Source: a virus. Taken from it: a stretch of DNA of 64,000 nt. Positions 23,501 through 34,220 of this stretch are shown one piece after another. Location: positions 1-64,000 of IMG/VR virus record IMGVR_UViG_3300005613_000009; one strand, given 5' to 3'. The position numbers were made by a program, and so were the translations under genes. Within the stretch, counting starts at the first letter, position 1; every line of letters starts with the position of its first letter. The notes beneath the pieces are model-generated. The model saw only the letters and a program-made list of their open reading frames with translations, did not search any database and was not told the origin of the DNA.

Positions 23501-23664
23501 TCTTTTATTCTTTCAAAACCTTTTTTATCTTTAAAGTCAAATTTTATTTTATCAAACCCTGTTTGAATTTTTTTAACAACACCTATTGCCTTAGTTGAAA
23601 GCTTTTCTAGGTTTTCCGAGGCATCTTTTGTTTCTATAGTAATATTTAAATGTCCATCAGCCAT
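11545..23664 (-). CDS. Giant tape measure protein
   Basis: 4039 residues, directly downstream of the frameshifted chaperone, as expected for a siphovirus tape measure protein. The first ~650 residues are charged and helical. A hydrophobic segment lies at about residues 670-705 (GFAATIFVFQYLARW) and a second at ~1735-1760 (IMPPLAIAMAVLF). Eight 44-residue helical repeats occupy about 1142-1495, and a family of ~80-90-residue repeats about 2460-2990. A proline-rich linker lies near 3205-3225, then repeats around GLLIGIEEN-WRL. The C-terminus (EGGITSGPLSGYPVELHGTE) is typical of tape measure C-termini. At ~0.15 nm per helical residue the full length would span about 600 nm, though not all of it need be helical. 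No muralytic domain was recognised. Confidence 0.93.
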   Translation of the reverse strand: MADGHLNITIETKDASENLEKLSTKAIGVVKKIQTGFDKIKFDFKDKKGFERIKEELKEVLEASQQLMGGFQKLRQVESNAVKAGLLPEYNKKIGKSYIYATEQLKAFEKAYTRLSKMSLTKQQQLSLELKAIATEAERATNAWNKFFNSFIRKVQVATRQVEELKRAQKTLLLPQKSLSVSDMVLIPEKAQSQQLEKTRNAIANIVEQEKAWTSSAKNRIVSLNNANKIEEKELITLKNLHRTKKESQALSKEEWTQSLKNASAINREADQWQNFNKIYSKMSTNRQRTTKETIVDTQKMVNAWTTAGQKRITVLTNTNRAEKKHLVSNREYLKQLAEGANKISKQSNAWDSFSSSFSKMSAKHRQGLEQVNSNTQEMISLDKKRILSLNDLNKIEEKGLIQTKNLHRVQKEGTSICTKLQAEEKNRIALLKQNYTQLGKLSNQTKSYKTFVHQLVEKQMSSNKVMQESVSVNKFAEAGRIELSRGITRLTKQLENGTISQKEYDSTMGQIVQRQKELDTASDKVTKRLNAQTKAEKETVHAHQSNSDKVNKLIKQYDQGNISLKKFTEQMRKYGAENIADKETVKKWEKHGQLIRIATAEMDKFGYSYKKMGKFSKAAFGLNTKEAEDFTRHLKNHQKNIKNMEGAYGRLHGQIIKANKAQQLFNNTFAKISVYMSGFAATIFVFQYLARWASQIVTHFMGWARSLDNLQQHFDLTVKEIKALGEVSRIFGRTTTISAQEAVKALRNYMKAGQSAAEAVESLQEKWEKSESHDKIKSLDDALKMLKNTIGDMNLEFFETYNEQIIEAIEKFKWWVKENEDGLLAIGKSFAELIEKISKVVLFFSDLQEYAKVGKEKTSFLGYLNGIPGLEAFHTILGYILSDHKEINIEIEKELAKQKEALNLENQIKALEATRIRNLGVMIKYSGDEFVVRYQALKKFTNNWVSFHEDLKKANLELYNAYLSHAKSTFAQIYDLRVTSEQKIQDKISSIYNNNEKQILKSQIDKIKKSYIDRLDLVEKYSKSYLLILKRMYKEIEKETKKIDVYKWYELLPEKEQNLPEIKRLKKIEDYTQQVTQEFLKLWGKAYDLDSEAAKKYIKFKVDLWKKEYDDTVKLLEVGMSAEDKAVNKLILEFDKAMKELDKKKLKDAEKFTADKKKLMEKGITSEHKAVYALELAFIAAMKVLDKKKLEDVEKFTADKKKLMEKGITSEYEAIYALELAFTAAMKALDKKKLEDREKFTANKKKLIEKGITSENEAVYALELAFITAMKELDKKKLKDAEKFTADKKKLMEKGITSEYEAVYELELAFIAAMKALDKKKLKDVEKFTADKKKLMEKGITSEHEAIYALELAFIAAMKALDKKKLEDREKFLADRKKLTETGIMAEYKAVYALELVFMAAMKALDKKKLEDREKFITDKKKLIEKGITSEDEAIYALELAFIAAMKELDKKKLEDSEKFIADKKELMEKGITSEYEAIYALELAFTAAMKKLDKKKADSGKKYRNDKLQAMKSLYSDLSKVSGDYYALQKEIIANEYEKYKEALGLKLKANQQYNEQQKKDLALLNEWLAQEQLKIDQDTWKKSGGLFGGVAAYLSEMKNDFKHFYEDIGQLGYESFEMIGDAFEETVVKVLKGDFDDIGDLWNEMLEEMLDDLIKTVAKMIKEWAMMELGNIVFDNESGLLSGLITTASKAAADIAVEQAITKVATDELGTLTLEGISTLSTISGGATAAEGAGLTTGALLAEIMPPLAIAMAVLFTHMKFSESQANHPSELITRSSMKVPEYSSPEYDPNALFEIMLNDLYTINGGWNPADVQNLLAGQIGKQIQAVTDTYNGIFRNISKKSQAELRETFADFDELRLLMSKTANDGARLYSTAALGKFAPNPFDSLNYQSATVPTNQYSTKMVDSFGVKEFDTALQAISKIIGKYFEKYVEEAVSGLKGHDMFEFMTDEIQDAINNADLESFINDIDAFGEAFGENSEKMRKAKIIWDDFNRFIYGEDAVDYTQLEKVTATAQAQLDSFVEKMKEFGKEMTDEEIADKLKSITKDLSEGIDLDELTSPMTTLDKLIASINGQFDAYLEMLEEQGVDLSKITDLEEKRNDAIERQINEFVDFLFETITKTLNSLLNKTSSLEDQLVKVFEAFDEIFKEAGQFTYAKISELLPEAGLDYEGMPKGFEIKDWIGDPSETSEWHTAWKKLKASLKEVSDEAKELNGILEDLASGKTDSAIEHFQNILDALLKPKGNELDFDLLKADMSHQFANDITQINKQIAGLRRDEYGYLIYELKGVGDAASGLAYRLEEFVSEVTDMSNEELVTALGNITGAVETYREKINKTLSGATSKWNLTNEDVAYLNSILTWLDTFEGNITIFEDRLSDLMQSTGSEEEIQRVRDIMADIGVGDFEEAIRYLNDELRDLEDSGTGTAAEIAKLRKEIADMEAATEAFNAMERKQLEVLKAQMGLFGDDYGKNLRIDEISDRYKDAMEHWGLTLEDLPDAFKTMDLDELKAYAKSLGLDWQDVVGDIAFLIEYFEDLADQAQRIEDAKDKIRGIDDNTPDWQKSINKIESRYGLTKGSIDEDYWDQIKAGFLDMDEDELQKMADDFGVSIDQLIADILALSDAFDAADAEAQAFIDAQDKIRGTYDDSPEWQKSINKIEDRYGLTRGSIDEDYWDQIKKGFLNMSQDDLQKMADDFDVPLTQLINDILALSDAFDEAAAETESIIDAQNELLGMGDSWQEKIASMERKLGFQPGDISLDDIANIKEKFLESDTDEVKAWAKSLGMTVDELIAAIFELTDAFDQAGAEINMIRQAQWDLSGKSGWQHELALLEEQLNLEPGDLNMDSFKDIIDRFNESPESVQAWADELNMSVTDLIGYINSIADAFEAKNVEMAAFEEAQWQLSGTEKEGKIARLEDKYGLERGGLSEDWVRALVEQFISDDYDTMLENANRWGVTVSEISEDVLWLADAFEIAGQELETSAEQIRANLEKIREQFDLAAFEKAGGTQAEYTWQKIMDIQGDPNVPSMMLPGDLLEMSELLDVWVQERIAEETSVLQLWQQVADRITSLVDSIDSTIQSIKYSNLNVNLPRSKFEEARSDYATLYAAAQAGDATAIEKFISFASTYLEQAQAEFKSSQAYQDIYAGVMSDLEEMRTALKAGDYDQLIYDELSGIHDDLVLNLDAIESQFETVAQWIEARLAALEQVADPPPIPPPDPDPPEPPEDLDTDIIRAIEHLNEDLMEVMQSLLDYTNDMVGLLIGVEENAWRLNKFLGADYVNWEKLSEAWDFINPTSSAGTDAVEGNGDLMEAMRSLLDYTSDIVGLLIGIEENIWRLNEFLGADYVNWDKLSEAWTFINPTASNGPDAIEGAGGFTFDNDGALEVSGTFGGDFTFDNDGYLKVTLPDGAYDELGMGFGSATPNMRDPISVYGLGLEWLDVSSEVWERNLKELGITGLLSGVLTYVTHLSGIERLNATSVGLLLGILQNTAVLAGYIAGQYQDIGSTAGYFNYPDISDYINSDTWITDTNNFKEDIDGLIETLKFDDSGALEVSGDLTVNFPTELDVNIASSDITLDVNIESSDITFETTTAEDAQELKLWWNIAGLLIGIEENIWRLTDFLGSDYVDFAELSRSWGGFEVPEGYEDINAITGARQFENTTFSNMNNMWLSSGSPYTKTMEQLGPEGLLAGILAFSRHLSGIEDKLGTGDGSTGAYLSSFEFEDHALKTTASVSVDMDETNDILEDIETNTQGADDNTNTLKNGFLDKIQFKDAALKVYVTGGSLDASVNTFGPGDFDLDRLGSTAYYTGLGEKWKDETSNLYNTPIGTLGVLGLLSGILTYVTHLRAIEENTNDLTNLDKLTGENIQGSWYGNNTTDVLMGIANRRDSWSVFGNRYKEDEYDRRIGINTLGVMGWLAIIAAHSQNIDDNTFNLNKKMDITGYKDAEYRLPEFAEGGITSGPLSGYPVELHGTEAVIPLSGGAIPVKFVNDAPAPQQLSDRPIYITLEIDGKPLDAKIKKISDEVRVTVERRPNNNKGRKVYP
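14700..16330 (-). repeat. Second repeat family (~80-90 aa units) in the tape measure gene
   Basis: About six units recur around W-x-K/E, a run such as INKIEDRYGL, then LSDAF. The two closest units are exactly 270 bases apart: the shared anchor TTTGATTTGGTCCCAATAA starts at 15634 and 15904. Outer units are much more diverged, so this family is older than the 132-bp array, with one more recent duplication in its centre. Confidence 0.8.
19179..20240 (-). repeat. Eight 132-bp (44-aa) tandem repeats in the tape measure gene
   Basis: The anchor TATCCA recurs at 19179, 19311, 19443, 19575, 19707, 19839, 19971, 20103 and 20235, exactly 132 bases apart each time. Each unit encodes 44 residues, with a consensus around KKKLEDxEKF, KKLMEKGITSE and ALELAFIAAMK. 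Degenerate half units flank both ends. 44 residues is four 11-residue (hendecad) turns, which suits a long helix or coiled coil. High nucleotide similarity between units points to recent expansion by slippage or unequal recombination. Confidence 0.92.
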
Positions 23665-23694: not shown

Positions 23695-24114
23695 TTATTT
23701 AACCGGCCTTTTTGGAGGCCGTACACCATTTGTCTTTGGCTTATCCTTTTCAGATTCTTTTTTCTGTTTGTCGTGTTGAAGCTTTACAAAATGTTCATCA
23801 ATGAACTGGATCCAGTGGATATATTCCTTGCGTTCTTCATAATTAAATATAAGTTCCTCGTTTAGATAACAGACTATTTCCGAAAAACTGATATAACCAA
23901 TCCCGAACCCCGTTGCCCTTGAATTAGAAAGGGTATGAAATGCTACATAATATGGAACAACATCTTGGAAAAGTTCTGGTTTATCTTGTAAAGCAGGCAA
24001 CAATGTAGCTGTTCTTCCACGTTTTGCTGCCTGCTCATCTCTTTCCTCCTGGAGCTTTAGAAACCATTCGTATTTATCCCCGTATCTATTTTGCCACTCC
24101 AGGAAATCAATTAG
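23695..24114 (-). CDS. Tail assembly chaperone, -1 frameshift extension (gpT-like part)
   Basis: This frame has no convincing start of its own but runs open from the slip site at 24114-24120 to a stop at 23695. It supplies 139 residues that would be fused to the 132-residue product of 24111-24509. It contains FLEWQNRYGDKYEWFLKLQ, then IGYISFSEIVCYLNEEL and EYIHWIQFIDEHF, then a basic Lys/Pro-rich tail. This resembles the T part of siphovirus gpGT-type chaperones. It ends just before the tape measure gene, the protein such chaperones coat during tail assembly. The fused product would be about 271 residues. Confidence 0.85.
   Translation of the reverse strand, partial: LIDFLEWQNRYGDKYEWFLKLQEERDEQAAKRGRTATLLPALQDKPELFQDVVPYYVAFHTLSNSRATGFGIGYISFSEIVCYLNEELIFNYEERKEYIHWIQFIDEHFVKLQHDKQKKESEKDKPKTNGVRPPKRPVK
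24048..24103 (-). other. Stem-loop downstream of the frameshift site
   Basis: On the minus strand a perfect 7-bp pair, CCTGGAG (24103-24097) with CTCCAGG (24054-24048), begins 10 bases after the slip site and closes a 42-base loop. Such stems commonly stimulate frameshifting. The spacer is slightly longer than the usual 5-9 bases. Confidence 0.5.
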
Positions 24115-24509
24115 TTTTTTTCAGTTTCCTTGTCTTCTTCAGCCCTGAATGATTCCATATCATTCGCAAAATCGCTTACATCATCACGGAAGTCGCGGTA
24201 ATCTGTGAGCAATCGAACAGCATTTTCATAAGAATAAGGGACAGGTTTACCATCTTCCTCCAGTCCGGACCAATCCAACAGGATTGATTTTGCCATAGCT
24301 TTGATCAATAGTTTATCTGCGACTTCATCGTTAAGCGATCCACGTCTAAGAGCTTGTTTATGTGGTTTGGTAATCTTCCGAAATGCTTTTTGGTATTGGG
24401 GATTCCCGATCCTCGCTACTTTGACCTTGACTTTTTCTCCAATATCTTGCCAAACACCATCGATTTCCGCGTTCTTGTTTGTGCCAAACATCTTTCTAAT
24501 ATCACCCAT
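24111..24509 (-). CDS. Tail assembly chaperone (gpG-like)
   Basis: 132 residues, highly charged, beginning MGDIRKMFGTNKNAEIDGV and ending KETEKN. It has a good ribosome binding site (AAAGGAG). The position between tail tube and tape measure, the size, and the slippery A AAA AAC at its last codons all fit a lambda gpG-type chaperone. A minority of ribosomes would shift -1 to make the gpGT-like fusion. The 284-base leader upstream holds an unusual structured RNA and a terminator. Confidence 0.88.
   Translation of the reverse strand: MGDIRKMFGTNKNAEIDGVWQDIGEKVKVKVARIGNPQYQKAFRKITKPHKQALRRGSLNDEVADKLLIKAMAKSILLDWSGLEEDGKPVPYSYENAVRLLTDYRDFRDDVSDFANDMESFRAEEDKETEKN
24114..24120 (-). other. Programmed -1 ribosomal frameshift site (A AAA AAC)
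   Basis: In the chaperone frame the last codons read GAA AAA AAC TAA. The heptamer A AAA AAC fits the X XXY YYZ rule for -1 slippage. After slipping, the next codon is CTA and the frame stays open to 23695. The two frames join at exactly the place where siphoviruses make gpG and gpGT. Confidence 0.88.
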
Positions 24510-24675: not shown

Positions 24676-24735
24676 CAAAAAAAAAGGCCGAACAAAGCGA
24701 CAATTATCCATCGCATTGATCGGCCTTCATGAGGC
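24676..24735 (-). terminator. Intrinsic terminator overlapped by a small hairpin (element C)
   Basis: On the minus strand AAGGCCGA (24727-24720) pairs with TCGGCCTT (24691-24684), 8 bp, followed by a run of U (A-run 24677-24685 on the plus strand). The loop holds a further GCGA/TCGC hairpin. Immediately 5' is a small hairpin GCCT (24735-24732), loop, AGGC (24726-24723), whose 3' arm is part of the terminator's 5' arm. The two cannot form together. It lies between the tail tube gene and the chaperone/tape measure genes and may tune expression between them. Confidence 0.7.
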
Positions 24736-24793
24736 TCTATGGCCCTACTATTTATGGCCTTATTTAATTGTCAAATAAGCTACAGGTTATTGT

Positions 24794-25975
24794 TTATGCT
24801 GAAAACTTATCGATTTGTATCTGGCAATCAGTGTTTGTATCTCGTTTTGCTCGCCATCCGATATTTTCCATAACATCAGAATTTTGGCCACCTGCATTTA
24901 TAGCATCAGTTTCAATTTCTATTGCAGGAAAAGTATAGACATAACAATTTCCGAGTGAGTCCTCAACAGCAAAGCTAAGCCCGGTTGCAGTTCCAGCAAG
25001 GTATTTATCATACAATGTTGAATCCAGAAAGTAAACATTCATCGTTCCTGTAATTTCGCATGTACCTACACCGATATCCACGTTAGCGATTGAACCAATG
25101 GCTCTTAGCCCACGAACATTATTGTTCAACGAGAATGAAAGTTCAGAGATGTATAAATCCGTATCCTTCGTTGCCAATGACGAAAATGCACCTTCGAATA
25201 TTTCGCCAACATTGCTTGAAGCATTCATAACAGGATTGGAACCAGCAGCATTGTTAGCACCGGATCCACCAGTTGATTGTGCAAGTGTTGCACTTTTTCC
25301 AATAAAATCAAAACTGCCTGTTAAAACACTGTCCGCGGAAGCGGAAATATTCAATGTATTGACGACCATACCTGTGTAATCAAAGAATTGGACGGCATCA
25401 GAATGTTCGCGTTCAAATGTAAAACTTGATTCTGTAACACCATTCCGTATGTAAGATCCTGCAATTACAATAGTCTGAGTTCCAGTGGCTTCCGTAGTAG
25501 GTGGCGATGGCGCTACGGATAGACCGGTTGTAGCTGTAGATGTAATCCTGTAAAGCCGGTTGTTTCCGGAATTTGTGGCTCCTGACACAGAAATCCATTG
25601 ACCAGTTACAAGAGCTGAAAAATTTGTGCTGTTTTCAGCATAAATTCTTCCGGAAGTATTATTGAATCCAATTTCACCACTTCTTGAAATTGTAGATGCT
25701 GTAGACCAACCGCTTGACCATAAAGCCGCTGCAAGCAATGTATCATACTCACTGTATGATAATTCAAAATCAAACCCACCGGAACAACTTGCACCAGTTT
25801 GAATAATGTCTGTAACCTGACGATCATTTCTGATCTCTTCACTTTGTGTATTGGTTATATTGTAAGCAAATGATTCACCTTTGAATCGTAGTTCTGTTAA
25901 TGCAGAAGATGGAGTTTCACCCCAAGTTGTTTCTGCAAGATACGCTAAACCTGTTCTATTTGTATCAGTTGCCAT
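24794..25975 (-). CDS. Major tail tube protein
   Basis: 393 residues, beginning MATDTNRTGLAYLAETTWGE. The N-terminus (LAYLAETTWGETPSSALTEL) and the alternating beta pattern are those of siphovirus tail tube proteins, and it lies just upstream of the chaperone and tape measure genes. The middle (~residues 105-180) may be an inserted beta module (SGRIYAEN, SGNNRLYRITS). Ribosome binding site CAGGAGG lies 9 bases before the ATG. The leader carries a small conserved hairpin containing a sequence complementary to that site (element B), suggesting translational control of this abundant protein. Confidence 0.88.
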   Translation of the reverse strand: MATDTNRTGLAYLAETTWGETPSSALTELRFKGESFAYNITNTQSEEIRNDRQVTDIIQTGASCSGGFDFELSYSEYDTLLAAALWSSGWSTASTISRSGEIGFNNTSGRIYAENSTNFSALVTGQWISVSGATNSGNNRLYRITSTATTGLSVAPSPPTTEATGTQTIVIAGSYIRNGVTESSFTFEREHSDAVQFFDYTGMVVNTLNISASADSVLTGSFDFIGKSATLAQSTGGSGANNAAGSNPVMNASSNVGEIFEGAFSSLATKDTDLYISELSFSLNNNVRGLRAIGSIANVDIGVGTCEITGTMNVYFLDSTLYDKYLAGTATGLSFAVEDSLGNCYVYTFPAIEIETDAINAGGQNSDVMENIGWRAKRDTNTDCQIQIDKFSA

Positions 25976-25983
25976 TTGTTGTT

Positions 25984-26018
25984 CCTCCTGTTAATATTTT
26001 GGTCTTCACAGGAGACTC
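25984..26018 (-). promoter_or_regulatory. Tail tube leader hairpin with anti-Shine-Dalgarno (element B)
   Basis: On the minus strand GTCT (26016-26013), a 7-base loop CCTGTGA and AGAC (26005-26002) form a 4-bp hairpin. CTCCTGT (26014-26008) is exactly complementary to ACAGGAG of the tail tube ribosome binding site (25991-25985), 16 bases downstream. The hairpin and its flanks match element A in front of the capsid gene, but the stem uses U-A where A has C-G, a compensatory change that supports an RNA structure. Confidence 0.6.
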
Positions 26019-26062
26019 ATAGATTAAAAATATAAAATCGAAAGTACTCGTTTTGCGCAAAC

Positions 26063-26476
26063 TTAAAAATATTCATCATATGTGTAGGGAATAATAACAA
26101 TATGCCTAAACCATTCTCCTTCCCTCATTTGGTTCTCTAAATATCCTGCTTGACAAGTTAACCCGTTTGATTGCCAGCCTTGTCCTTTTGAATTCTTAAA
26201 TATTCCAATTGCTGTATCAGCTAAATCATCGCCAACTTTTGCGCCAGTATCGATTGTAGAAGTCATGATATTAATTTCAACAAAACCAATTGATCTAACT
26301 AATGGATGATTGCCCATAGATGCATAACTGGAATCATTAGGGGTAATCTTAAAAGTTACAAAACTTGTTCCAGATACAGGTTCATAATCGACATTTTCCC
26401 ACACAATAGGAGTCCTGGATGCCCATTGATCATTAAATCTTACTTCAAGAAGTGTTCGAATTGCTGATACTGTCAT
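26063..26476 (-). CDS. Tail terminator-like protein (DUF4128/gpU type)
   Basis: 137 residues. The N-terminus (IRTLLEVRFNDQWASRTPI) and the following VTFKITPND and SIGFVEINI strands match the DUF4128/gpU-like tail terminator family as I know it. Such proteins cap the tail tube and join it to the head. The start overlaps the stop of the upstream gp10-like gene by four bases (ATGA), and the gene lies just before the tail tube gene, the canonical order. Confidence 0.75.
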   Translation of the reverse strand: MTVSAIRTLLEVRFNDQWASRTPIVWENVDYEPVSGTSFVTFKITPNDSSYASMGNHPLVRSIGFVEINIMTSTIDTGAKVGDDLADTAIGIFKNSKGQGWQSNGLTCQAGYLENQMREGEWFRHIVIIPYTYDEYF

Positions 26477-26985
26477 AGCCTGTTTTCTCTGTATTTACGT
26501 TGTGCCCTTCGTACAATTGAAGGTAAATACCGACTGAAATACTGCTTTGTTCTTGTAAATGGATAATACCCTTCAGCCCTTGGCCAACCTGTCCCCCATT
26601 CCACATTGAAATTATGAGGCACTTCATTTGTTATAACAAATTTATCATGGACTTTGGCCTGTGATAATTTTGCCTTTAATTGTTTAAGATGAGCTGTACG
26701 TCGTGCATAATTAATCTTTTTACGGTGCATCTTAGAAACAATCGTATAAGGTTCTCTGCTTGGACCATTTATTCCTAACCGGTGACTAAGCATGTACGAC
26801 CCCAAACTATAATCTGGCCGTTTTGATCGACCTTTTGGCTTTCTGTCAGGAGCTGGTGAACAATCTGTTAAATACCTGAAAACACTTGTTGTTACAAATT
26901 TCGAGACAAAAAGAACTTCTTCACCAACCTCTTTTTTAAACTTATCGATTGCAATCTCAAAATCTCTTATGTTTGAAGTTGTCAT
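26473..26985 (-). CDS. HK97 gp10-like tail completion protein
   Basis: 170 residues, basic. The C-terminal half has ITNEVPHNFNVEWGTGWPR, resembling the N-x-VPYA-x-VEYGTG signature of HK97 gp10-like minor tail proteins, which act at the head-tail junction. The N-terminus is a probable long helix (IRDFEIAIDKFKKEVGEEV). It overlaps the genes on both sides by four bases (ATGA), so all three are probably translationally coupled. Confidence 0.8.
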   Translation of the reverse strand: MTTSNIRDFEIAIDKFKKEVGEEVLFVSKFVTTSVFRYLTDCSPAPDRKPKGRSKRPDYSLGSYMLSHRLGINGPSREPYTIVSKMHRKKINYARRTAHLKQLKAKLSQAKVHDKFVITNEVPHNFNVEWGTGWPRAEGYYPFTRTKQYFSRYLPSIVRRAQRKYRENRL

Positions 26986-27149
26986 GTTACATCAACTATC
27001 CCTGTTTTCATGTTTTTGCGTTCAACAATCTTTCGACTTGTGAATTTATTGATTTTTGCGCACCTGGGACATTTGATAACGATTTGCCCTGGATCTCCTA
27101 CACCCAACAACTTATTGCAGTTGTAACAACGATTTTGCTGGTTTAGCAT
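26982..27149 (-). CDS. com: Com-like zinc-ribbon regulator
   Basis: 55 residues from an ATG at 27149, chosen because AAAGGA lies just upstream; an in-frame ATG at 27185 has no such site and overlaps the previous gene. The sequence CYNCNKLLGVGDPG, then IKCPRCAKINKF, with Cys at 8, 11, 27 and 30, matches the Com family of phage Mu. In Mu, Com binds a hairpin in its own mRNA and opens the mom start site. No mom gene is visible in this window. Its place in the head-tail gene run, next to leaders with RNA hairpins, suggests it may act on structural gene mRNAs (inference). Confidence 0.75.
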   Translation of the reverse strand: MLNQQNRCYNCNKLLGVGDPGQIVIKCPRCAKINKFTSRKIVERKNMKTGIVDVT

Positions 27150-27157
27150 AGAATCCT

Positions 27158-27523
27158 TTATGGTTTTCTTGTTTGTAATATCCATAACGCATTAGCCGGA
27201 TCAACTTTTTTATTTACAACATTCCATCGTTTACTATCAGCTTCCATGTAATCATGGTTAGACGGTATTATTGGCAGATTTTCAACAGGGATCATTGCAA
27301 TTTGATCTGTATTTAATATCGTAACGCCATCCACATCTTCAGATTCGTATTCATCGAAAATAACTGAAACGGTATAATTTGTAGCTGATGTTGAAACAGC
27401 ACCCGTTGCAGGGTTATAACTTGCATTTGCAGTAACATGCGTATAGGTTACCGATGTTTTGATATTTCCGGAAACCTCGAATGCCATTTGCGCTGCAGCT
27501 TTAAAAACTTCCTGAAGACCCAT
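27158..27523 (-). CDS. Head-tail joining/closure protein
   Basis: 121 residues. It has a helical N-terminus (LQEVFKAAAQMAFEVSGNI) followed by beta strands and a loop. The pattern IPSNHDYMEADSKRWNVVNKK resembles phage head closure/adaptor proteins, which carry a conserved stretch leading to a W-x-V strand. It sits between the connector gene at 27786 and the gp10-like gene, as in many siphoviruses. Ribosome binding site AGGAA. Confidence 0.65.
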   Translation of the reverse strand: MGLQEVFKAAAQMAFEVSGNIKTSVTYTHVTANASYNPATGAVSTSATNYTVSVIFDEYESEDVDGVTILNTDQIAMIPVENLPIIPSNHDYMEADSKRWNVVNKKVDPANALWILQTRKP

Positions 27524-27528
27524 ATGAA

Positions 27529-27768
27529 TTATTCCTGATGATCTTTCTTGCTAAAAAAACTATATTTAGATTTTTCGATCGGCTCTTCCGGATCATTTTC
27601 AATCGAGTTCTCTTCTTCAATTTCAGGAGCTTCAACTGTATCTGAAACCTCAAATGTCGTAGTTTGAATATACGGTGTGTAAGATGCCTTTCCAGTTTTT
27701 ACTAATTTCTGGCCTTCAACCGCAGTTACTTTCTTGTAAGATCCATCTTCAAAATATACGGTAATCAT
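27529..27768 (-). CDS. Small acidic head-module protein
   Basis: 79 residues, not recognised. The first 35 residues look like a compact beta unit (MITVYFEDGSYKKVTAVEG), followed by a disordered acidic tail rich in Glu and Pro. It has a strong ribosome binding site (AAGGAG) and tight spacing with both neighbours, so it is very likely expressed with the head-tail genes. A short scaffold or accessory role is possible but not shown. Confidence 0.6.
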   Translation of the reverse strand: MITVYFEDGSYKKVTAVEGQKLVKTGKASYTPYIQTTTFEVSDTVEAPEIEEENSIENDPEEPIEKSKYSFFSKKDHQE

Positions 27769-27785
27769 TTGGTTCTCCTTCCTAA

Positions 27786-28310
27786 TTAAATTCTTTCTAG
27801 ATTTCTAGTTCGTGCATAACTTCGGGTCCCATAATCTTTGATCATTGCCCATACTGATAACGGCATCACTGGCCGTCTATCTTGTTTGTCTACCTCAAAG
27901 CTTAATGATGCAACTTTAAGTTTTTTGAATCCATATGTATCAAAATCAGATGTTCTGTCTTCAGAAAGTAGATATATAGCGTATTCAGATGTGGCCCTGA
28001 CTAAAAACTTTGGGATTAAATCTTCATCTATCTCATTTCCATCAGAATCATATATGTTTTCCCTTGGCCATCGCAAGGCCTGGTTTTCAGGACCAATACC
28101 TGTTGGATCTGATTTTGAACCATTCCAGTCCATTTGATCGTCTAACAACCTGGTTGCCCATACAAGACATGCATTTCTGTTTGCAGTTGTCGCAGAAGAC
28201 CATGTTGAATAAGTATGAATATTCTGTTCAAGAAACTCACTAGCTGAAGCTAACGTAGCATAACTGTTAGACGTTGCAGCACCTGGTGTTGTTATTAAAG
28301 TTATTGCCAT
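27786..28310 (-). CDS. Head-tail connector (DnaT-like/adaptor family)
   Basis: 174 residues. SNSYATLASASEFLEQNI followed by ANRNACLVWATRLLDDQMDW and NQALRWPRENIYDSDG is the pattern of the phage family often named putative DnaT-like ssDNA binding protein, which in structural operons is a head-tail adaptor. Helical throughout. The position after the capsid genes and before the closure protein agrees. Confidence 0.8.
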   Translation of the reverse strand: MAITLITTPGAATSNSYATLASASEFLEQNIHTYSTWSSATTANRNACLVWATRLLDDQMDWNGSKSDPTGIGPENQALRWPRENIYDSDGNEIDEDLIPKFLVRATSEYAIYLLSEDRTSDFDTYGFKKLKVASLSFEVDKQDRRPVMPLSVWAMIKDYGTRSYARTRNLERI

Positions 28311-28385
28311 TTCTAGAACCTTTTACAATTCTCTATCATTTTCAGACAAGTAACAGTTACCTCATCTTTGCTGTCAAAATCTACT

Positions 28386-29195
28386 TTAATATGTTGCAGT
28401 TGCAGTTTTGACATAATATTTGACCTGTAACCAAGATACCCCGATAAGCTGTCCATAATCATCTTCGGTGTCTGACACATCCCGGTTCAGTAAAAACCGC
28501 ACAGTTTCACCCGGCGCAAGGTCAGTAATTGTTATAACCGTCCAACCGGTTGACCACGCATCCCATTGGGCGTTTGCACCCGCATCCCCGTTCAGATCGT
28601 CTTCCTCTGTGACAACGGTGTCGCCTTCCGTGCAAGTTATTAGATCACCATCGCCATACGAGCATCCCGCAATCTGGAACGCCACTCCTTCATCAGCTGC
28701 CGGAGCGGTTAAGTTTGTTATTACACCCTTTACCCGTACTTTGATCTGATTAGCTGTGGCTTCATATAAATTTACAGGTACTTGCCACTCTATCAATACG
28801 TCCTCATCAGCATCAGAAGCGAACGTCCGATATTCGGTCTGGTCGTGGGCTGCTGCGGCGTCAGGTGCACTTGTTCCATTTTGTGCCCAACCTATGGGAA
28901 TGGAATCGATATCGACGTAATAAATTGTGGATAGTGAAGAAGATGAACCAGCACTCAAAGCACCAGTGACAGTAACCGTTGTTCCATCATCACTCATCAT
29001 TGAATTTTCAAACCCGCTTGCGCCCATTTTTGGGATATTATTATCGGTGACTCCCGTTAAATCAACAGTAACAAATCGCGGACTGCCGCCAGACTCGCTA
29101 TAATTCGAATATGGTCCATAGTCTTTAGCAAACGAAAATCCAGCCATTAAAAAGTATGTTAATAATCCTATGCCAAATACTTTTAATACCTTCAT
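28386..29195 (-). CDS. Secreted-type structural/appendage protein
   Basis: 269 residues with a clear N-terminal signal peptide: MKVLKVFG, a hydrophobic core, and SFA-KD as likely cleavage site. The mature protein is acidic and beta-rich with two or more Cys. Residues ~48-80 (VTDNNIPKMGASGFE and SDDGTTVTVTG) are nearly the same as a segment of the partial protein at 1-756. The body of the gene is visibly more GC-rich than its neighbours. Ribosome binding site GGGAGAG. The role is unknown; a surface-exposed or virion-decorating protein is possible. Confidence 0.65.
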   Translation of the reverse strand: MKVLKVFGIGLLTYFLMAGFSFAKDYGPYSNYSESGGSPRFVTVDLTGVTDNNIPKMGASGFENSMMSDDGTTVTVTGALSAGSSSSLSTIYYVDIDSIPIGWAQNGTSAPDAAAAHDQTEYRTFASDADEDVLIEWQVPVNLYEATANQIKVRVKGVITNLTAPAADEGVAFQIAGCSYGDGDLITCTEGDTVVTEEDDLNGDAGANAQWDAWSTGWTVITITDLAPGETVRFLLNRDVSDTEDDYGQLIGVSWLQVKYYVKTATATY

Positions 29196-29207
29196 GCTAC
29201 TCTCTCC

Positions 29208-29615
29208 CTATTTGTAAAACATGACCGATACTTTAGCGGCACTTTCGGAAATAATTCCGATAGTTGCTGAATCTAAATAACGAACAGACGGATTTAGCTC
29301 AGATCCTGTTCCGTCCGTAGTGTCTCCAGCAGGAATAGCTGCAACACCACCAATTTTTACCCATATATCAGCATCAGCACAAAATACTGCAAATTTCGCT
29401 CCTGTTGGAGCTGTAACTGCTTTATTCGTATTTATAGTTAAGACATATGTGTTTATATAACCTTGCTGAATAGCAAAATTTGTATCAGGAGTTGTTGCAA
29501 CATCTTCATCAATAACGGATGAAAACTTTTTGTAACTGACAAAAGGATCTAAAGCCCATACATTTCCGGCTAAGAAGAATAGACACAAAGCAAAAATGGT
29601 CAGATTTTTTTTCAT
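29208..29615 (-). CDS. Small secreted-type protein
   Basis: 135 residues with a classical signal peptide: MKKNLTIFALCLFFLAG then VWA-LD as cleavage site. The mature 114 residues are beta-prone (YINTYVLTINTN, AKFAVFCADADIWVKIGG, AAKVSVMFYK) and resemble small phage decoration or cement-type folds, but I do not recognise the family. It lies 12 bases upstream of the other signal-peptide gene at 28386-29195, suggesting an exported pair. Confidence 0.65.
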   Translation of the reverse strand: MKKNLTIFALCLFFLAGNVWALDPFVSYKKFSSVIDEDVATTPDTNFAIQQGYINTYVLTINTNKAVTAPTGAKFAVFCADADIWVKIGGVAAIPAGDTTDGTGSELNPSVRYLDSATIGIISESAAKVSVMFYK

Positions 29616-29664
29616 AATTATACCTCTTTGTGGAAAAAATTTACTAAAATCTATTCTCTATCGA

Positions 29665-29976
29665 CTAATCCTTTTTGTTATCTGTAGCTGAAGGTTTATC
29701 GATATTGTTGTTAAAAAACATTATCTCTTCCTTGGGTTTTGTTTGTGTATCCAACGATTTTTCTTCGAATGATTCTTTACGAACTTTTTTCTCTTTTACA
29801 GGTTTTTTCTCTTTTTTGATCGGTTTTATATTCTGTTTTTCGTCTGTTTTTGGTGGACGACCACGTTTTACATCAGGTAATTTTTCCGTGTATTTACCTG
29901 TAGCCAAAGCCGTTTTGATATCTACTGCATGATGTATCGTAACAGGTTGTCTGTTTTGATCGTATAGAATAGCCAT
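29665..29976 (-). CDS. Small basic protein with AT-hook-like motif
   Basis: 103 residues. Residues 1-30 form a possible small domain (MAILYDQNRQPVTIHHA). Residues 37-43 read KRGRPPK, an AT-hook-like core that binds the minor groove of AT-rich DNA in other proteins. The rest is a Lys/Glu-rich disordered tail. It has a strong AGGAGG ribosome binding site. DNA binding is inferred from the motif only; the gene could equally encode a small internal head protein. Confidence 0.6.
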   Translation of the reverse strand: MAILYDQNRQPVTIHHAVDIKTALATGKYTEKLPDVKRGRPPKTDEKQNIKPIKKEKKPVKEKKVRKESFEEKSLDTQTKPKEEIMFFNNNIDKPSATDNKKD

Positions 29977-29997
29977 GATTAAATCCTCCTGGTAAAA

Positions 29998-31329
29998 TTA
30001 TTTTCTTATAATCTTAAGTCCAATATCTTCTATGCTTTGGACTGTTTTAATAATGGATTCAGGGATGACATATTGTTTCATCTCTGGAAAACCCATTCGA
30101 TTAAAAAGACTTGTTAAATCGTTTGTTAAGCCATTTTTAAATTTAGGATTTGTTTTCGGTAGATTGTTTTTTATTTCGTTGAAAACACGTTTTAAATCAT
30201 GTAGTTGAATCAATAAATAATGAAAATGGCAAAACCCCAATGCCTCTGGGACCTGCGTAAAAATGAATTTACTACCTTTAAGAGTTGGGTCTTTTTCATA
30301 TTGTTCATATAGCTCAATAAATCGTTTGGATCCCAATATGGTTAAATCAGCCCTTCGTTGCCATACCCCATATTCTGTTAAGGCCATAGCCATATCCAAA
30401 TCATTAGGCAATGCCTTCAATCCCATATTTAACCACTCATTAGCTTTTTCAGCGTTTTCCATGGCAACATAGCAATGAAAAATACAGTAATAAATATCAA
30501 ACATAAATTGGTTGTCTTGTGTTGCTTGGTTTTTTTGCTTTATATATTTTTCACCATATTCGATTGCTTTTTCATTTTCATTGTAGAGAGCATAATGCTG
30601 TGCTAAATAAAAATATGCCAAGTGATCATCAGGATTAATTTCAATGCGTTTTTTGAGTAAACTTTCAGTTCGTTGTCGTTTTCTCTTAGATTGTTCCGGG
30701 GTAAGATCATATCCGTAATGTCGAATAAATATATCATCGACAACAAGAGTTTTGACACCTTCTACGATTGGTTGGTTGTGAACAATACCTTCATAATGAA
30801 TTTTACCTTTTCTAAATATGCGAGAAGAATTGAATTTAAGCATAGTTTGATCTTTTTGAACATCTTCAAACAAAATGGCTAATCCGTGGATCTGGGAAGG
30901 AATATTTGCAAGAGATTTTCTGAAGCCATGGCTATTTGTTTTCATGAATAATTCTTCATCAGCATCAATAATCATTAACCAGTCAGAAGATGCATGTTGG
31001 ATAGAAAGATTGCGGTATTTTGAGAAATCATCAATGATTTCGCCTTCAAATGGATAGTTGAAAACCTTAGCACCATAGGATTCGCAAACTTTTACGGTGT
31101 TGTCCGTTGATCCTGTATCAATGATAATTATTTCATCTACATTATCCTTAACGGATTTGAGACATCGATCTATATTTTTTTCCTCATTTTTGACCATCAT
31201 ACATGCAGAGATCGTAGGCTGTTTTGGCAATTGGACGATATTGTTATGCAAGTTAACGGCTTTTTTTATCCGTTTCTTATTTGTTTTCCGTTTTCTATTC
31301 GCAATAACTTTTTGTTTATTTTTTGACAT
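29998..31329 (-). CDS. GT2 glycosyltransferase with TPR-like helical domain (copy 1)
   Basis: 443 residues. After a basic N-terminal extension of ~35 residues comes a family 2 glycosyltransferase fold: ISACMMVKNEEKNIDRCLKS, VDEIIIIDTGSTDNT and a DAD motif near residue 122 (LMIIDADEE) that would bind the sugar-nucleotide metal. Residues ~230-310 are TPR-like helices (AYFYLAQHYALYNENEKAI). It is a tandem paralogue of the next gene upstream. Its place within the structural operon suggests that capsid or tail proteins could be its targets, but host surface sugars are also possible. Confidence 0.85.
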   Translation of the reverse strand: MSKNKQKVIANRKRKTNKKRIKKAVNLHNNIVQLPKQPTISACMMVKNEEKNIDRCLKSVKDNVDEIIIIDTGSTDNTVKVCESYGAKVFNYPFEGEIIDDFSKYRNLSIQHASSDWLMIIDADEELFMKTNSHGFRKSLANIPSQIHGLAILFEDVQKDQTMLKFNSSRIFRKGKIHYEGIVHNQPIVEGVKTLVVDDIFIRHYGYDLTPEQSKRKRQRTESLLKKRIEINPDDHLAYFYLAQHYALYNENEKAIEYGEKYIKQKNQATQDNQFMFDIYYCIFHCYVAMENAEKANEWLNMGLKALPNDLDMAMALTEYGVWQRRADLTILGSKRFIELYEQYEKDPTLKGSKFIFTQVPEALGFCHFHYLLIQLHDLKRVFNEIKNNLPKTNPKFKNGLTNDLTSLFNRMGFPEMKQYVIPESIIKTVQSIEDIGLKIIRK

Positions 31330-32580
31330 TTAAGCAGCTTTCTTTATGATTTCAGAAGTAGATAAATTATCTAGAATTAATTCATTGGACAACTTCTTTG
31401 GGTTAATATTTGCTCCAAAAGATTGCACAAGATCTTTCATGGAATTCAGATTTAAAACGACCTCAAGATCTTTTGTCATACCGTTTTTGAAATCAGGGTG
31501 AGTTTCGTTTAATATTTTATATAGATTGTTAACATTTACTAATGTTTGTTTTGCTAATACTGCAACAAGATTAAACAAGACAAAAGACACTGATTCAGGA
31601 GAAAGGCTATATATGAATCGGCTCCCTCTCAAATCAGGATTTGCTTGAAATCGTTCGTAAAGATTCAAGAAATTCCTTGCGCCATTTAAAACCATAAGTT
31701 CGTTTTGTTGCCATGCCCCAAACTCTACAATACATCGGGCAACATCGATGTCTGTTGGTAATTCCTCGGATCCTATTTTGAGCCATTCTTGAGTTTTTTC
31801 GACATTTCGCAAATTAATATATGAGTGAATCATTGTGTAGTAGATAGACGACATAAATTGTTTTTCTTTTATTGCCTGATCTTTATACTTAATATATTTT
31901 TCACCATAGTTGACTGCATTTATAAAGTCTCTATTGGCTGCGTAATATTGGTTTAGATAAAAATATGCCATATAATCATCTGGATTTTCCTTGATACGCT
32001 TTTCTAACAGGGTTTTGGTCCGAATGTTTTTCTTTTCTCTTTCTTCTGGCGTTAGATCATATCCGTAGTGTTTAATAAATGCTTTGTCTGTAAACTTTGT
32101 ACTATTCTCAGAAATATTAGGTTGATTATGGACCGAATCTTTATATCGAATAGCACCATTTCGAAAAAGACGAGATGATACGAATTCAACAACTTTCATA
32201 TTTTTCTGCATATCATTTACTATAATCGCAGCACCTAAATATTTACTGGAAAGATCAAAAAGATATTGTTTAAAAGCAGTCGGAGTTATATTGGATAAAT
32301 AGAATTCTTCATCAGCATCGATAATCAAAATCCATTCAGATGTGGCATAACTAATAGATTGATTTCGATGTAGGCTAAAATCGTTCATCCATGGATGTGA
32401 ATAAACTTTTGCGCCGAATTGTTTACAAATGTTTGGAGAAGTATCTTTCGAACCGGTATCAACAACAATAATTTCGTCAGCAATTTCCTTAATTGACGAC
32501 AAACATCGATGAAGGTTTTTTTCCTCATCTCGGACCATCATACAAACCGAAAGCGTATTGTTTCGAAAGGCTTCACTCAT
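31330..32580 (-). CDS. GT2 glycosyltransferase with TPR-like helical domain (copy 2)
   Basis: 416 residues from the ATG at 32580, chosen because GGAGA lies 9 bases before it; an in-frame ATG at 32589 lacks spacing. Same layout as copy 1: LSVCMMVRDEEKNLHRCLSS, DEIIVVDTGSKDTS, a DAD motif near residue 85, then TPR-like helices and a C-terminal helical region. The two genes abut. The start is only about 30 bases after a strong intrinsic terminator, so expression needs read-through or antitermination. Confidence 0.85.
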   Translation of the reverse strand: MSEAFRNNTLSVCMMVRDEEKNLHRCLSSIKEIADEIIVVDTGSKDTSPNICKQFGAKVYSHPWMNDFSLHRNQSISYATSEWILIIDADEEFYLSNITPTAFKQYLFDLSSKYLGAAIIVNDMQKNMKVVEFVSSRLFRNGAIRYKDSVHNQPNISENSTKFTDKAFIKHYGYDLTPEEREKKNIRTKTLLEKRIKENPDDYMAYFYLNQYYAANRDFINAVNYGEKYIKYKDQAIKEKQFMSSIYYTMIHSYINLRNVEKTQEWLKIGSEELPTDIDVARCIVEFGAWQQNELMVLNGARNFLNLYERFQANPDLRGSRFIYSLSPESVSFVLFNLVAVLAKQTLVNVNNLYKILNETHPDFKNGMTKDLEVVLNLNSMKDLVQSFGANINPKKLSNELILDNLSTSEIIKKAA

Positions 32581-32611
32581 TCCAAACATTCTCCATTTTT
32601 CGATGTTTTTA

Positions 32612-32655
32612 TAAAAAACTGTCTGGTTGCGGTCAAAAGACCGCAGTAACCAGAC
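32612..32655 (-). terminator. Intrinsic terminator after the cement gene
   Basis: A 14-bp stem in two blocks (GTCTGGTT with AACCAGAC, GCGGTC with GACCGC, three-base bulge) closes an AAAA loop (TTTT on the minus strand). On the minus strand it is followed by a U-run (plus-strand A-run 32613-32618). It separates the highly expressed capsid and cement genes from the glycosyltransferases and tail genes, and so may step down their transcription. Confidence 0.85.
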
Positions 32656-32673
32656 AAAATAATGGGCTAATAT

Positions 32674-33117
32674 TTATGCACGGCCTTTGGCCATTTGAGC
32701 GGTATATGTAATACCAGTACCAGTAGTTCCGGTTACAGTTGTATAGATCCGAAGATACCGATAAACAGTATCAGAGAACATATTACTCCAGAACATCTTA
32801 TAAAGTCCGGCTGCATCACTTCTGGTTGCCTTATTTGCACTTGAACCTCCAAGCTCTATAGTCGCCAGAGTAACAATAGGTGTGGCGAAAGTTGAACTTG
32901 CGGAACCCTGTAGGGAAATCTCATACAGAATGTCACCAGTGGATGAAGTTCCATCAATTGCACTTACATAAATATCAACAAGCCCAGTTGTGTATCCGCC
33001 ACCTGTATCAAAAATTTTTGCGACAGCATCTACCGAGGCCAATGCACTTGATGTAACAGCGTAAGAATCTTTCATCTCACATTCTGCATCCCAGATTATT
33101 TTTCTATTATCTAACAT
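32674..33117 (-). CDS. Putative capsid cement protein (Bbp16-like)
   Basis: 147 residues directly downstream of the capsid gene. It begins MLDNRKIIWDAECEMKDSYA and consists of Gly/Thr/Ser-rich beta strands ending in a strand-rich C-terminus (YRYLRIYTTVTG). Size, position and layout resemble Bbp16-type capsid cement proteins that decorate HK97-fold shells. Ribosome binding site AAAGGAG. The strong terminator just after it marks the end of the capsid transcription unit. Confidence 0.7.
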   Translation of the reverse strand: MLDNRKIIWDAECEMKDSYAVTSSALASVDAVAKIFDTGGGYTTGLVDIYVSAIDGTSSTGDILYEISLQGSASSTFATPIVTLATIELGGSSANKATRSDAAGLYKMFWSNMFSDTVYRYLRIYTTVTGTTGTGITYTAQMAKGRA

Positions 33118-33187
33118 ATTGGAATCTCCTTTGTTAAAAGAGTTATATAGTTAAAACAGGTTACCTGCTTTGTATATGGACCAAATC

Positions 33188-34117
33188 TTACGCAGCTACA
33201 GTACCATCAATAACACTCCATAGTCTGGCTGCTGCTTTTGGACGCATGATAGACATAGTGATATACCATTCAACCCTGGTCCGAAAAACCGGTTTTTCAT
33301 CGATTTCACCCAAATCCCTAACGTCCATTTCGCCATTTTGAAGGCCAACAACCCCTGTATCATCGAGAGATACACAATAAATCGATGTACTATTCAAATG
33401 GGAATTACTGTTGGTTTCTGTAAACGGCATAATATCGGTATTGGTATTATCTTTATCAACAATAAGAATAGGCAAATCATTGAATTTGGTAACCCTATGT
33501 CCAAAAGAATCTTGATCATAAGTGATATATCCGCCGACAGAAGCACTTCTTGAAGCAGCACTTAATCGCCGTCTCATGGTTTTATTCATAATCAAATGGG
33601 TAGGATCCTCGACCGCATCAATCAACTCATCAAGTTTAGTCAATGAAAGTACAACGCCACTACTAGCACTGGCTGCAATCAATTGATCACCTGTACAACG
33701 TACTTGAAGACCGTCAAACCCTTTTGGATCAGAAGTTACATCACCTTTAATAAACTCTTTGGTCATTGCCAGTGATATTGCTTTGATCTTCATTGATTCC
33801 TGTGTTGCTCTTTGATCAATACCGCCTGTTTTTACCAACATAACGTCAACATCAAGGTCACCACCTGCAATAGCCAGAGACTCCGTAACCCTCTCAGTCT
33901 CACCAGTTCCTTCGGTATAACTCTCGTTTACGCCACGAAACCCGGCGTTCGGCAATGTTTTTTCACGGTTGAAAGACAAAGCATTTCCATCGATGTTGTC
34001 AAAAGGCATATACTGAAGGATATCGGAATTTTTCGCATAAAGTTCCATTACCGATGCCCTAAGTGCTTCATCTCTTCCAAGAGCAATTTTTGCTGATTCT
34101 ACTAATGTTAATGCCAT
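33188..34117 (-). CDS. Major capsid protein (HK97 fold)
   Basis: 309 residues from the ATG at 34117, selected by an AGGAGG site 8 bases upstream. An in-frame start at 34174 would place the leader terminator inside the gene. The sequence has the features of HK97-fold coats: an N-terminal helix (LVESAKIALGRDEALRASV), FDNIDGNALSFNR strand, the long-helix region (QESMKIKAISLAMTKEFIKG), THLIMNKTMRRRLSAASR and a C-terminal A-domain ending near RTRVEWYITMSIMRPKAAAR. The scaffold gene lies upstream and the cement gene downstream. The leader holds element A. Confidence 0.9.
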   Translation of the reverse strand: MALTLVESAKIALGRDEALRASVMELYAKNSDILQYMPFDNIDGNALSFNREKTLPNAGFRGVNESYTEGTGETERVTESLAIAGGDLDVDVMLVKTGGIDQRATQESMKIKAISLAMTKEFIKGDVTSDPKGFDGLQVRCTGDQLIAASASSGVVLSLTKLDELIDAVEDPTHLIMNKTMRRRLSAASRSASVGGYITYDQDSFGHRVTKFNDLPILIVDKDNTNTDIMPFTETNSNSHLNSTSIYCVSLDDTGVVGLQNGEMDVRDLGEIDEKPVFRTRVEWYITMSIMRPKAAARLWSVIDGTVAA

Positions 34118-34125
34118 TGATAGTT

Positions 34126-34220
34126 CCTCCTGTTTCAGGTTAGAATCTGTTTGGACAAAAAAAAGGCCAAACAAGTTTATAAAAGATTAACTTTCTTTGG
34201 CCTTCACAGGAGGCTCGTAC
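34126..34220 (-). promoter_or_regulatory. Capsid leader: anti-Shine-Dalgarno hairpin overlapping a terminator (element A)
   Basis: On the minus strand, reading 5' to 3', a small hairpin GCCT (34214-34211), 7-base loop CCTGTGA, AGGC (34203-34200) is followed by a perfect 9-bp terminator stem (AAGGCCAAA 34204-34196 with TTTGGCCTT 34171-34163) and a U-run. The AGGC arm is shared, so the two structures exclude each other. CCTCCTGT (34213-34206) is exactly complementary to ACAGGAGG (34133-34126), the capsid ribosome binding site. Both transcription and translation of the capsid gene could be controlled here. Confidence 0.65.
34158..34204 (-). terminator. Attenuator-type terminator before the capsid gene
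   Basis: A 9-bp perfect stem AAGGCCAAA/TTTGGCCTT with a 24-base loop, itself able to fold by AAGTT/AACTT, ends in a U-run on the minus strand. It lies between the scaffold stop and the capsid start with no room for a strong promoter after it, so read-through must be regulated or partial. Confidence 0.75.

Follow-up and report, generated by a model that had tools for sequence, protein, structure and literature searches.

Candidate Com-type RNA operators at the capsid and tail tube genes of a phage

The zinc-ribbon protein Com of phage Mu activates translation of mom by binding a hairpin in the mom leader; its native site is GAAUGCCUGCGAGCAUCC, the mapped 19-mer is GAAUGCCUGCGAGCAUCCC, and the SELEX motif is GAGNNCC-N2-3-GAGNNCC, the GA of the loop being crucial (PMC6483171). 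A hairpin of the same general layout recurs at the virion genes of a viral DNA stretch of 64,000 nucleotides (positions 1 to 64,000 of IMG/VR record IMGVR_UViG_3300005613_000009, hereafter the window), which also encodes a Com homologue. With a probability of roughly 0.8, judged from sequence comparison, the repeated element is the RNA operator of the phage's own Com-type zinc ribbon, which would trap the hairpin, free the ribosome binding sites (RBSs) of the capsid and tail tube genes and block nearby terminators. A known Com on-switch thus appears to have been redeployed for the control of virus-particle building.

The hairpin, the Com homologue and their association in related phages

All three copies in the window fit the layout GA-[4 bp]-C-N2..4-GA-[4 bp]-C; the hairpins, Shine–Dalgarno (SD) sequences, terminators and four principal genes described here lie on the minus strand. 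The copy in the capsid leader (34199–34216; GAGCCTCCTGTGAAGGCC, i.e., GA-GCCT-C-CTGT-GA-AGGC-C), situated about 65 nt from the capsid SD, is found at the same site in the capsid leaders of L006 and L148 (the loci compared are given by their L numbers). The copy in the tail tube leader (26001–26018; GAGTCTCCTGTGAAGACC, i.e., GA-GTCT-C-CTGT-GA-AGAC-C) likewise recurs at the same site in most com-positive tube loci (see below). The third, in the gap between the tail tube and chaperone genes (24722–24737; GAGCCTCATGAAGGCC, i.e., GA-GCCT-C-AT-GA-AGGC-C), has syntenic GCTT/AAGC versions in L052/L006 and in L055.

A first-pass annotation, made from the letters of the window, had listed the sequences and positions of these copies, the compensatory change between the stems GCCT/AGGC and GTCT/AGAC, and the identities of the three genes concerned, all of which hold. 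The major capsid protein gene (33188–34117, 309 residues, start ATG at 34117) matches PF20911 GP7 (1.7e-12) and PHROG 212, major head protein; the tail tube protein gene (24794–25975, 393 residues, start ATG at 25975) matches PF18906 Phage_tube_2 (2.4e-45); and the tail assembly chaperone gene, located 3' of the third hairpin (24111–24509), matches PHROG 313 (5.3e-32). The same annotation had placed the third copy before the chaperone gene. It is present there, at 24737–24722, but its end lies 213 nt ahead of the chaperone start; hence, it is better regarded as a putative post-tube attenuator, overlapping a terminator, than as part of an RBS leader.

The proposed trans-acting factor is encoded between the capsid and tail tube genes (26982–27185) as a 67-residue C4 zinc ribbon, assigned to PF10122 (26.7 bits against a cut-off of 22.9) and to the PHROG translational regulator / gpCom. 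Residues R19, C20, C23, N24, K25, L26, L27, C39, P40, R41 and C42 align with Mu Com, so that the four cysteines are retained, as are the R/N/K/R positions which have been proposed to contact RNA. The layout pattern performs as expected on the known system: in a 1.7 kb Mu region it recovers the known site and nothing else, and the hairpin lies just 5' of the com-controlled methyltransferase (MTase) or mom gene in Mu, SuMu, AP3, B3, UMP151 and KS5. In Chuche, where com is upstream of a DNA methyltransferase gene, a version with one mismatch fits the SELEX motif.

The relation between com and the hairpin was assessed in 75 tail tube homologues gathered by protein similarity, 23 of them with com in the available DNA and 52 without. 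The 160 nt preceding the tube start contained the hairpin at 20 of the 23 com-positive loci and at none of the 52 com-negative ones; after removal of near-duplicates (55 homologues left), the counts were 11/12 and 0/43 (Fisher p = 1e-10), figures that are inflated by the relatedness of the loci. Still, the com-negative L240 and L241 outrank the com-positive L242–L244 and L255 in similarity, so the split cannot be put down to distance alone, and the methyltransferase phages, the Clostridia-type phages and a GC-rich group provide independent support for the association.

The closest relative, L006/L052 (capsid 77%, tube 65% identical), carries hairpins before the capsid gene, before the tube gene and after it. 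Two contigs of one sample, L055 (tube) and L148 (capsid), retain the hairpins with other loops, and L055 retains the post-tube copy as well. Com homologues above the Pfam cut-off are also encoded in L006, L052, L055 and L175, with weaker matches in L008, L009 and L013. Pattern scans of viral contigs, in which no protein information was used and matches in leaders were considered, added further tail tube genes in the GC-rich group (L030, L109, L115, L129, L142, L151) and in L175. In the latter, a small zinc-ribbon open reading frame (ORF) that resembles Mu Com and immediately precedes the tube gene includes the hairpin in its 3' end; this arrangement provided the clue to the Com identity of the element. 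A Com-like zinc-ribbon ORF stands directly upstream of the tube leader in all six GC-rich contigs. It falls below the PF10122 cut-off and was found only with a Com profile built for this analysis, which five of the six contigs match (E 7e-5 to 0.26); the L129 record has no match to this profile at E<=10, and its ORF was recognised by eye. Most pattern-scan matches, L189 included, were rejected as lying within unrelated coding sequence, and the GC-rich version of the hairpin, used as an exact pattern against bacterial genomes, gave no match. The contig scans also detected the hairpin at L080:1202 and L104:1075, in front of two genes that resemble each other on visual inspection; for the L104 product, the collection of named phages gave no match.

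Comparison of 33 hairpins shows that each of the four stem pairs changes on both sides somewhere in the family, that U-G pairs occur in some stems, and that the C and GA of the loop are invariant (loops were padded with N, as MAFFT misaligned unpadded hairpins). The covariation count is biased, and hence descriptive, because most members had been gathered by a rule that included stem pairing. A fair test is given by matches to the sequence-only pattern: in com-positive leaders, 11 of 12 such matches are paired, the background rate being 4.4%. Conservation of the hairpin and covariation of its stem in related phage leaders, the check suggested in the first-pass annotation, are seen in the com-positive relatives, with the same reservation about the count.

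Alternative pairing with Shine–Dalgarno sequences and terminators

The anti-SD complementarity described in the first-pass annotation is exact. In the capsid hairpin, CCTCCTGT (34206–34213) is complementary over 8 nt to positions 34133–34126 of the capsid SD (ACAGGAGG, 34126–34133), with a duplex energy of -14.5 kcal/mol; in the tube hairpin, CTCCTGT (26008–26014) is complementary to ACAGGAG at 25991–25985 (-11.7 kcal/mol) in the tail tube SD (ACAGGAGG, 25984–25991). Further pairs of this kind are AGCCTCCTTTG/CAAAGGAGGCT in L175 and ACCTCCTT/AAGGAGGT in L235. Over 17 capsid and tube leaders, pairing of the hairpin 5' half with its own RBS sums to -189.0 kcal/mol, against -170.0 +- 4.9 kcal/mol with the RBSs permuted among the leaders (0 of 20,000 permutations reach -189.0; p<5e-5) and about -104 kcal/mol with shuffled hairpin halves. 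The 5' half of the hairpin is, therefore, tuned to the SD of its own gene.

The 3' arm of the hairpin takes part in a second alternative. In two of the three window copies, those before the capsid gene and after the tube gene, AAGGCC of this arm opens a U-tailed intrinsic terminator, formed by AAGGCCAAA...TTTGGCCTTTTTTTT in the former case and AAGGCCGA...TCGGCCTTTTTTTTT in the latter. The capsid-leader terminator (34157–34205), whose 5' arm AAGGCCAAA includes the hairpin 3' arm, has an 8-U tail and a predicted energy of -15.6 kcal/mol versus -8.8 kcal/mol with the Com hairpin forced; the post-tube terminator (24677–24728), overlapping the third hairpin's 3' arm, has a 9-U tail and -25.1 versus -19.1 kcal/mol. 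The identity of hairpin 3' arm and terminator 5' arm recurs in ten leaders of differing sequence: the two of the window, the post-tube leaders of L052 and L055, and the com-end leaders of L223, L311, L307, L312, L299 and L300. The overlap is also found beside com genes of Clostridia-type phages, and L299 and L300 lie within Caloranaerobacter and Anaerosalibacter genomes. The terminator arms vary together (AGGCC/GGCCT, AAGCCCGGG/CCCGGGCTT, AGTCC/GGACT, AGCCC/GGGCT, AGCGCC/GGCGCT), and without protein the terminator is predicted to be favoured over the Com hairpin by 6–13 kcal/mol. All ten leaders are accordingly predicted to form the two mutually exclusive structures, one of them an intrinsic terminator, which define a transcription attenuator. 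Since two of the three window hairpins overlap terminators, part of the control is probably transcriptional.

The following scheme can be proposed. In the absence of Com, the 5' half of the element would pair with the SD at the capsid and tube genes, and its 3' arm would fold into the intrinsic terminator before the capsid gene and after the tube gene. Com would bind the C-N2..4-GA loop and trap the 4-bp hairpin in the nascent late mRNA; as the hairpin excludes both SD pairing and the terminator, Com binding should release both, so that capsid and tube could be translated and the polymerase could read through into the capsid gene and the chaperone region. The capsid leader is followed, on the same strand, by com, so that read-through could increase the amount of Com as well and thereby provide positive feedback late in infection. 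The translational switch shared by capsid and tube genes, as suggested in the first-pass annotation, is well supported by the hairpins of the relatives and by their tuning to their own RBSs, but that suggestion named no trans-acting factor and overlooked the terminators.

Contrary observations and rival explanations

Several observations weigh against this scheme. The hairpin is present in L080 and L104, short contigs in which no com was found; the com-positive L008 and L013 lack it before the capsid gene; and in L232–234, which have com, the tube leader contains no strict hairpin. Window-type sites close the loop with a U-A pair, whereas the SELEX motif and the mapped MTase/mom sites have C-G. 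The L055 tube hairpin pairs weakly with its SD (-4.7 kcal/mol), and the L148 capsid hairpin pairs with the start-codon region rather than the SD; the non-conservation of the anti-SD which these two loci suggested is overturned by the swap test over 17 leaders. Finally, com and the hairpin could have been co-inherited within the tube set, though the GC-rich, MTase and Clostridia lineages argue against this as a full explanation.

Of the other ways to account for the element, the least improbable, though still unlikely, is that the Com-bound hairpin is a repressor site, the protein sitting about 10 nt upstream of the SD, blocking ribosomes and limiting capsid and tube output. Phage coat proteins and RegA-type repressors are indeed established to bind hairpins near RBSs, and the hairpin-to-SD spacing is short in the tube leaders. 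Nevertheless, the distance in the capsid leader is far longer, the hairpin is incompatible with both OFF structures, i.e., SD pairing and the terminator, so that its binding should relieve them, and the characterised Com activates mom (PMC6483171). Somewhat less probable still is a protein-independent cis switch, e.g., a thermosensor or attenuator folding onto the SD or terminator, to which Com would be unrelated: the anti-SD pairing is tuned to each RBS and the terminators are stable by themselves, but neither pairing needs the invariant C and GA of the loop, the hairpin co-occurs with com, and its layout is identical to that of the Com SELEX motif.

An element acting as DNA, as an operator or promoter part for late transcription, would agree with an inverted repeat upstream of late genes; it is very improbable, given the asymmetry of the element (5' GA, loop C..GA, 3' C), its constant orientation to the gene, the U-G pairs in stems, the pairing of the 3' arm into terminators, and the location of the hairpin within the end of the com coding sequence in L175, Mu and the Clostridia-type com genes. 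Chance similarity of short GC-rich hairpins is hardly credible at all. It is true that the general pattern gives four matches in the 120 kb record against 1.5 +- 1.0 expected, which is not significant alone; the significance comes from the comparison with relatives, namely the 11/12 versus 0/43 association and the syntenic, covarying copies. Three of these four matches are the elements described here; the fourth, at 24414 (GAGGATCGGGAATCCC, within the chaperone gene and also in L052), was rejected as coding conservation because L055 retains the chaperone protein without the hairpin.

Neighbouring features and comparison with known systems

Between the capsid and tail genes, the window carries two glycosyltransferase family 2 genes (29998–32589), and downstream of the tail chaperone region there is an ORF of 4039 amino acids (11545–23664). 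Rfam (release 15) gave no match in the window at the gathering score, and a search of the post-tube region at E<=10 returned nothing relevant. No match was obtained to a T7-type RNA polymerase, considered together with late promoters of its own, but this search missed its controls too and does not imply absence.

Other RNA structures occupy equivalent positions elsewhere. The Com-type element is absent from the leaders of phiCbK-like, Ruegeria, Mesorhizobium and Nanhaivirus phages, where other structures are present. In the tube–chaperone gaps of these phages (L156:2405-2575, L160:2050-2215, L161:2410-2575, L154:1775-1940, L155:1780-1870), the segments CCCGAC / GTCGGG / CCCGAC recur within a structured RNA, and the final segment is near the chaperone start in several cases; this RNA looks like a separate RNA-switch family at the same position. 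In the GC-rich relatives L109 (5139-5074, minus) and L129 (6178-6113, minus), int-alpA RNA (Rfam RF02996), likewise a structured RNA, comes directly after the tail tube gene, where the window has the third Com hairpin and its terminator; its fold is unlike the Com-type hairpin. In the com-positive L226 (6335), L228 (3681), L236 (5350) and L243 (5915), additional candidate hairpins that fit the Com pattern (GATTCTC..GAAGAAC) occupy similar positions 3' of the tube gene, within what appears to be coding sequence, with a terminator about 130 nt further on. The capsid relatives L031 and L048, in which there is no clear com, have another small hairpin (AATCCCGG..CGGGAT) in the capsid leader, just upstream of 10001; it overlaps a terminator (..CCGGGATTTTTT) and may represent a comparable attenuator that responds to a different factor.

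It seems somewhat more probable than otherwise that Com-type zinc ribbons represent a wider class of phage RNA switches, in which one Com serves several virion genes with two outputs per hairpin (SD release and antitermination), sets the timing and dose of capsid and tube and feeds back on com, and which in Clostridia-type phages acts as an antiterminator beside com. If so, Com, known as the activator of a DNA-modification gene in Mu, would represent a general way for phages to set late-gene dosage; it would control the two most abundant virion proteins in several unrelated phage groups, the zinc-ribbon family would join the proteins controlling intrinsic terminators, and the small zinc-ribbon ORFs of phage tail modules would gain a function. 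The switch would be a compact one, consisting of a protein of about 67 residues and an 18-nt hairpin.

Among the systems that work in a like manner, ribonucleic antiterminators (RAT) of the BglG/LicT type consist of a hairpin bound by a protein, with the 3' arm doubling as the 5' arm of an intrinsic terminator. The likeness to the window is one of operation and not of family membership: no RAT sequence was recognised in the window element, and a Com zinc ribbon would take the place of the CAT-PRD protein. The MS2 coat hairpin and the T4 RegA/gp32 operators also combine a phage protein with a short hairpin near the RBS of virion or late genes; these repress, whereas activation by a Com zinc ribbon is expected in the window.

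The closest parallel is com/mom of Mu, with which the window shares a zinc-ribbon Com homologue, a hairpin of the layout given above upstream of the start, and an SD concealed in an alternative structure; in L175 and the GC-rich group, com is, as in Mu, immediately upstream of the gene that it would control. The window differs in its targets, which are not a mom or DNA methyltransferase gene overlapping com but the major capsid gene, the tail tube gene and the post-tube region, and window-type phages have several targets each. The anti-SD is inside the hairpin itself, while Mu has a separate element (TIS), the loop-closing pair is U-A, and the terminator overlap is absent from the published Mu model. 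No link of Com to virion genes or terminators was found in the literature searched, which consisted largely of papers outside subscription journals. Overall, the protein family and the type of operator are known, and the virion-gene targets and the antitermination output are apparently new.

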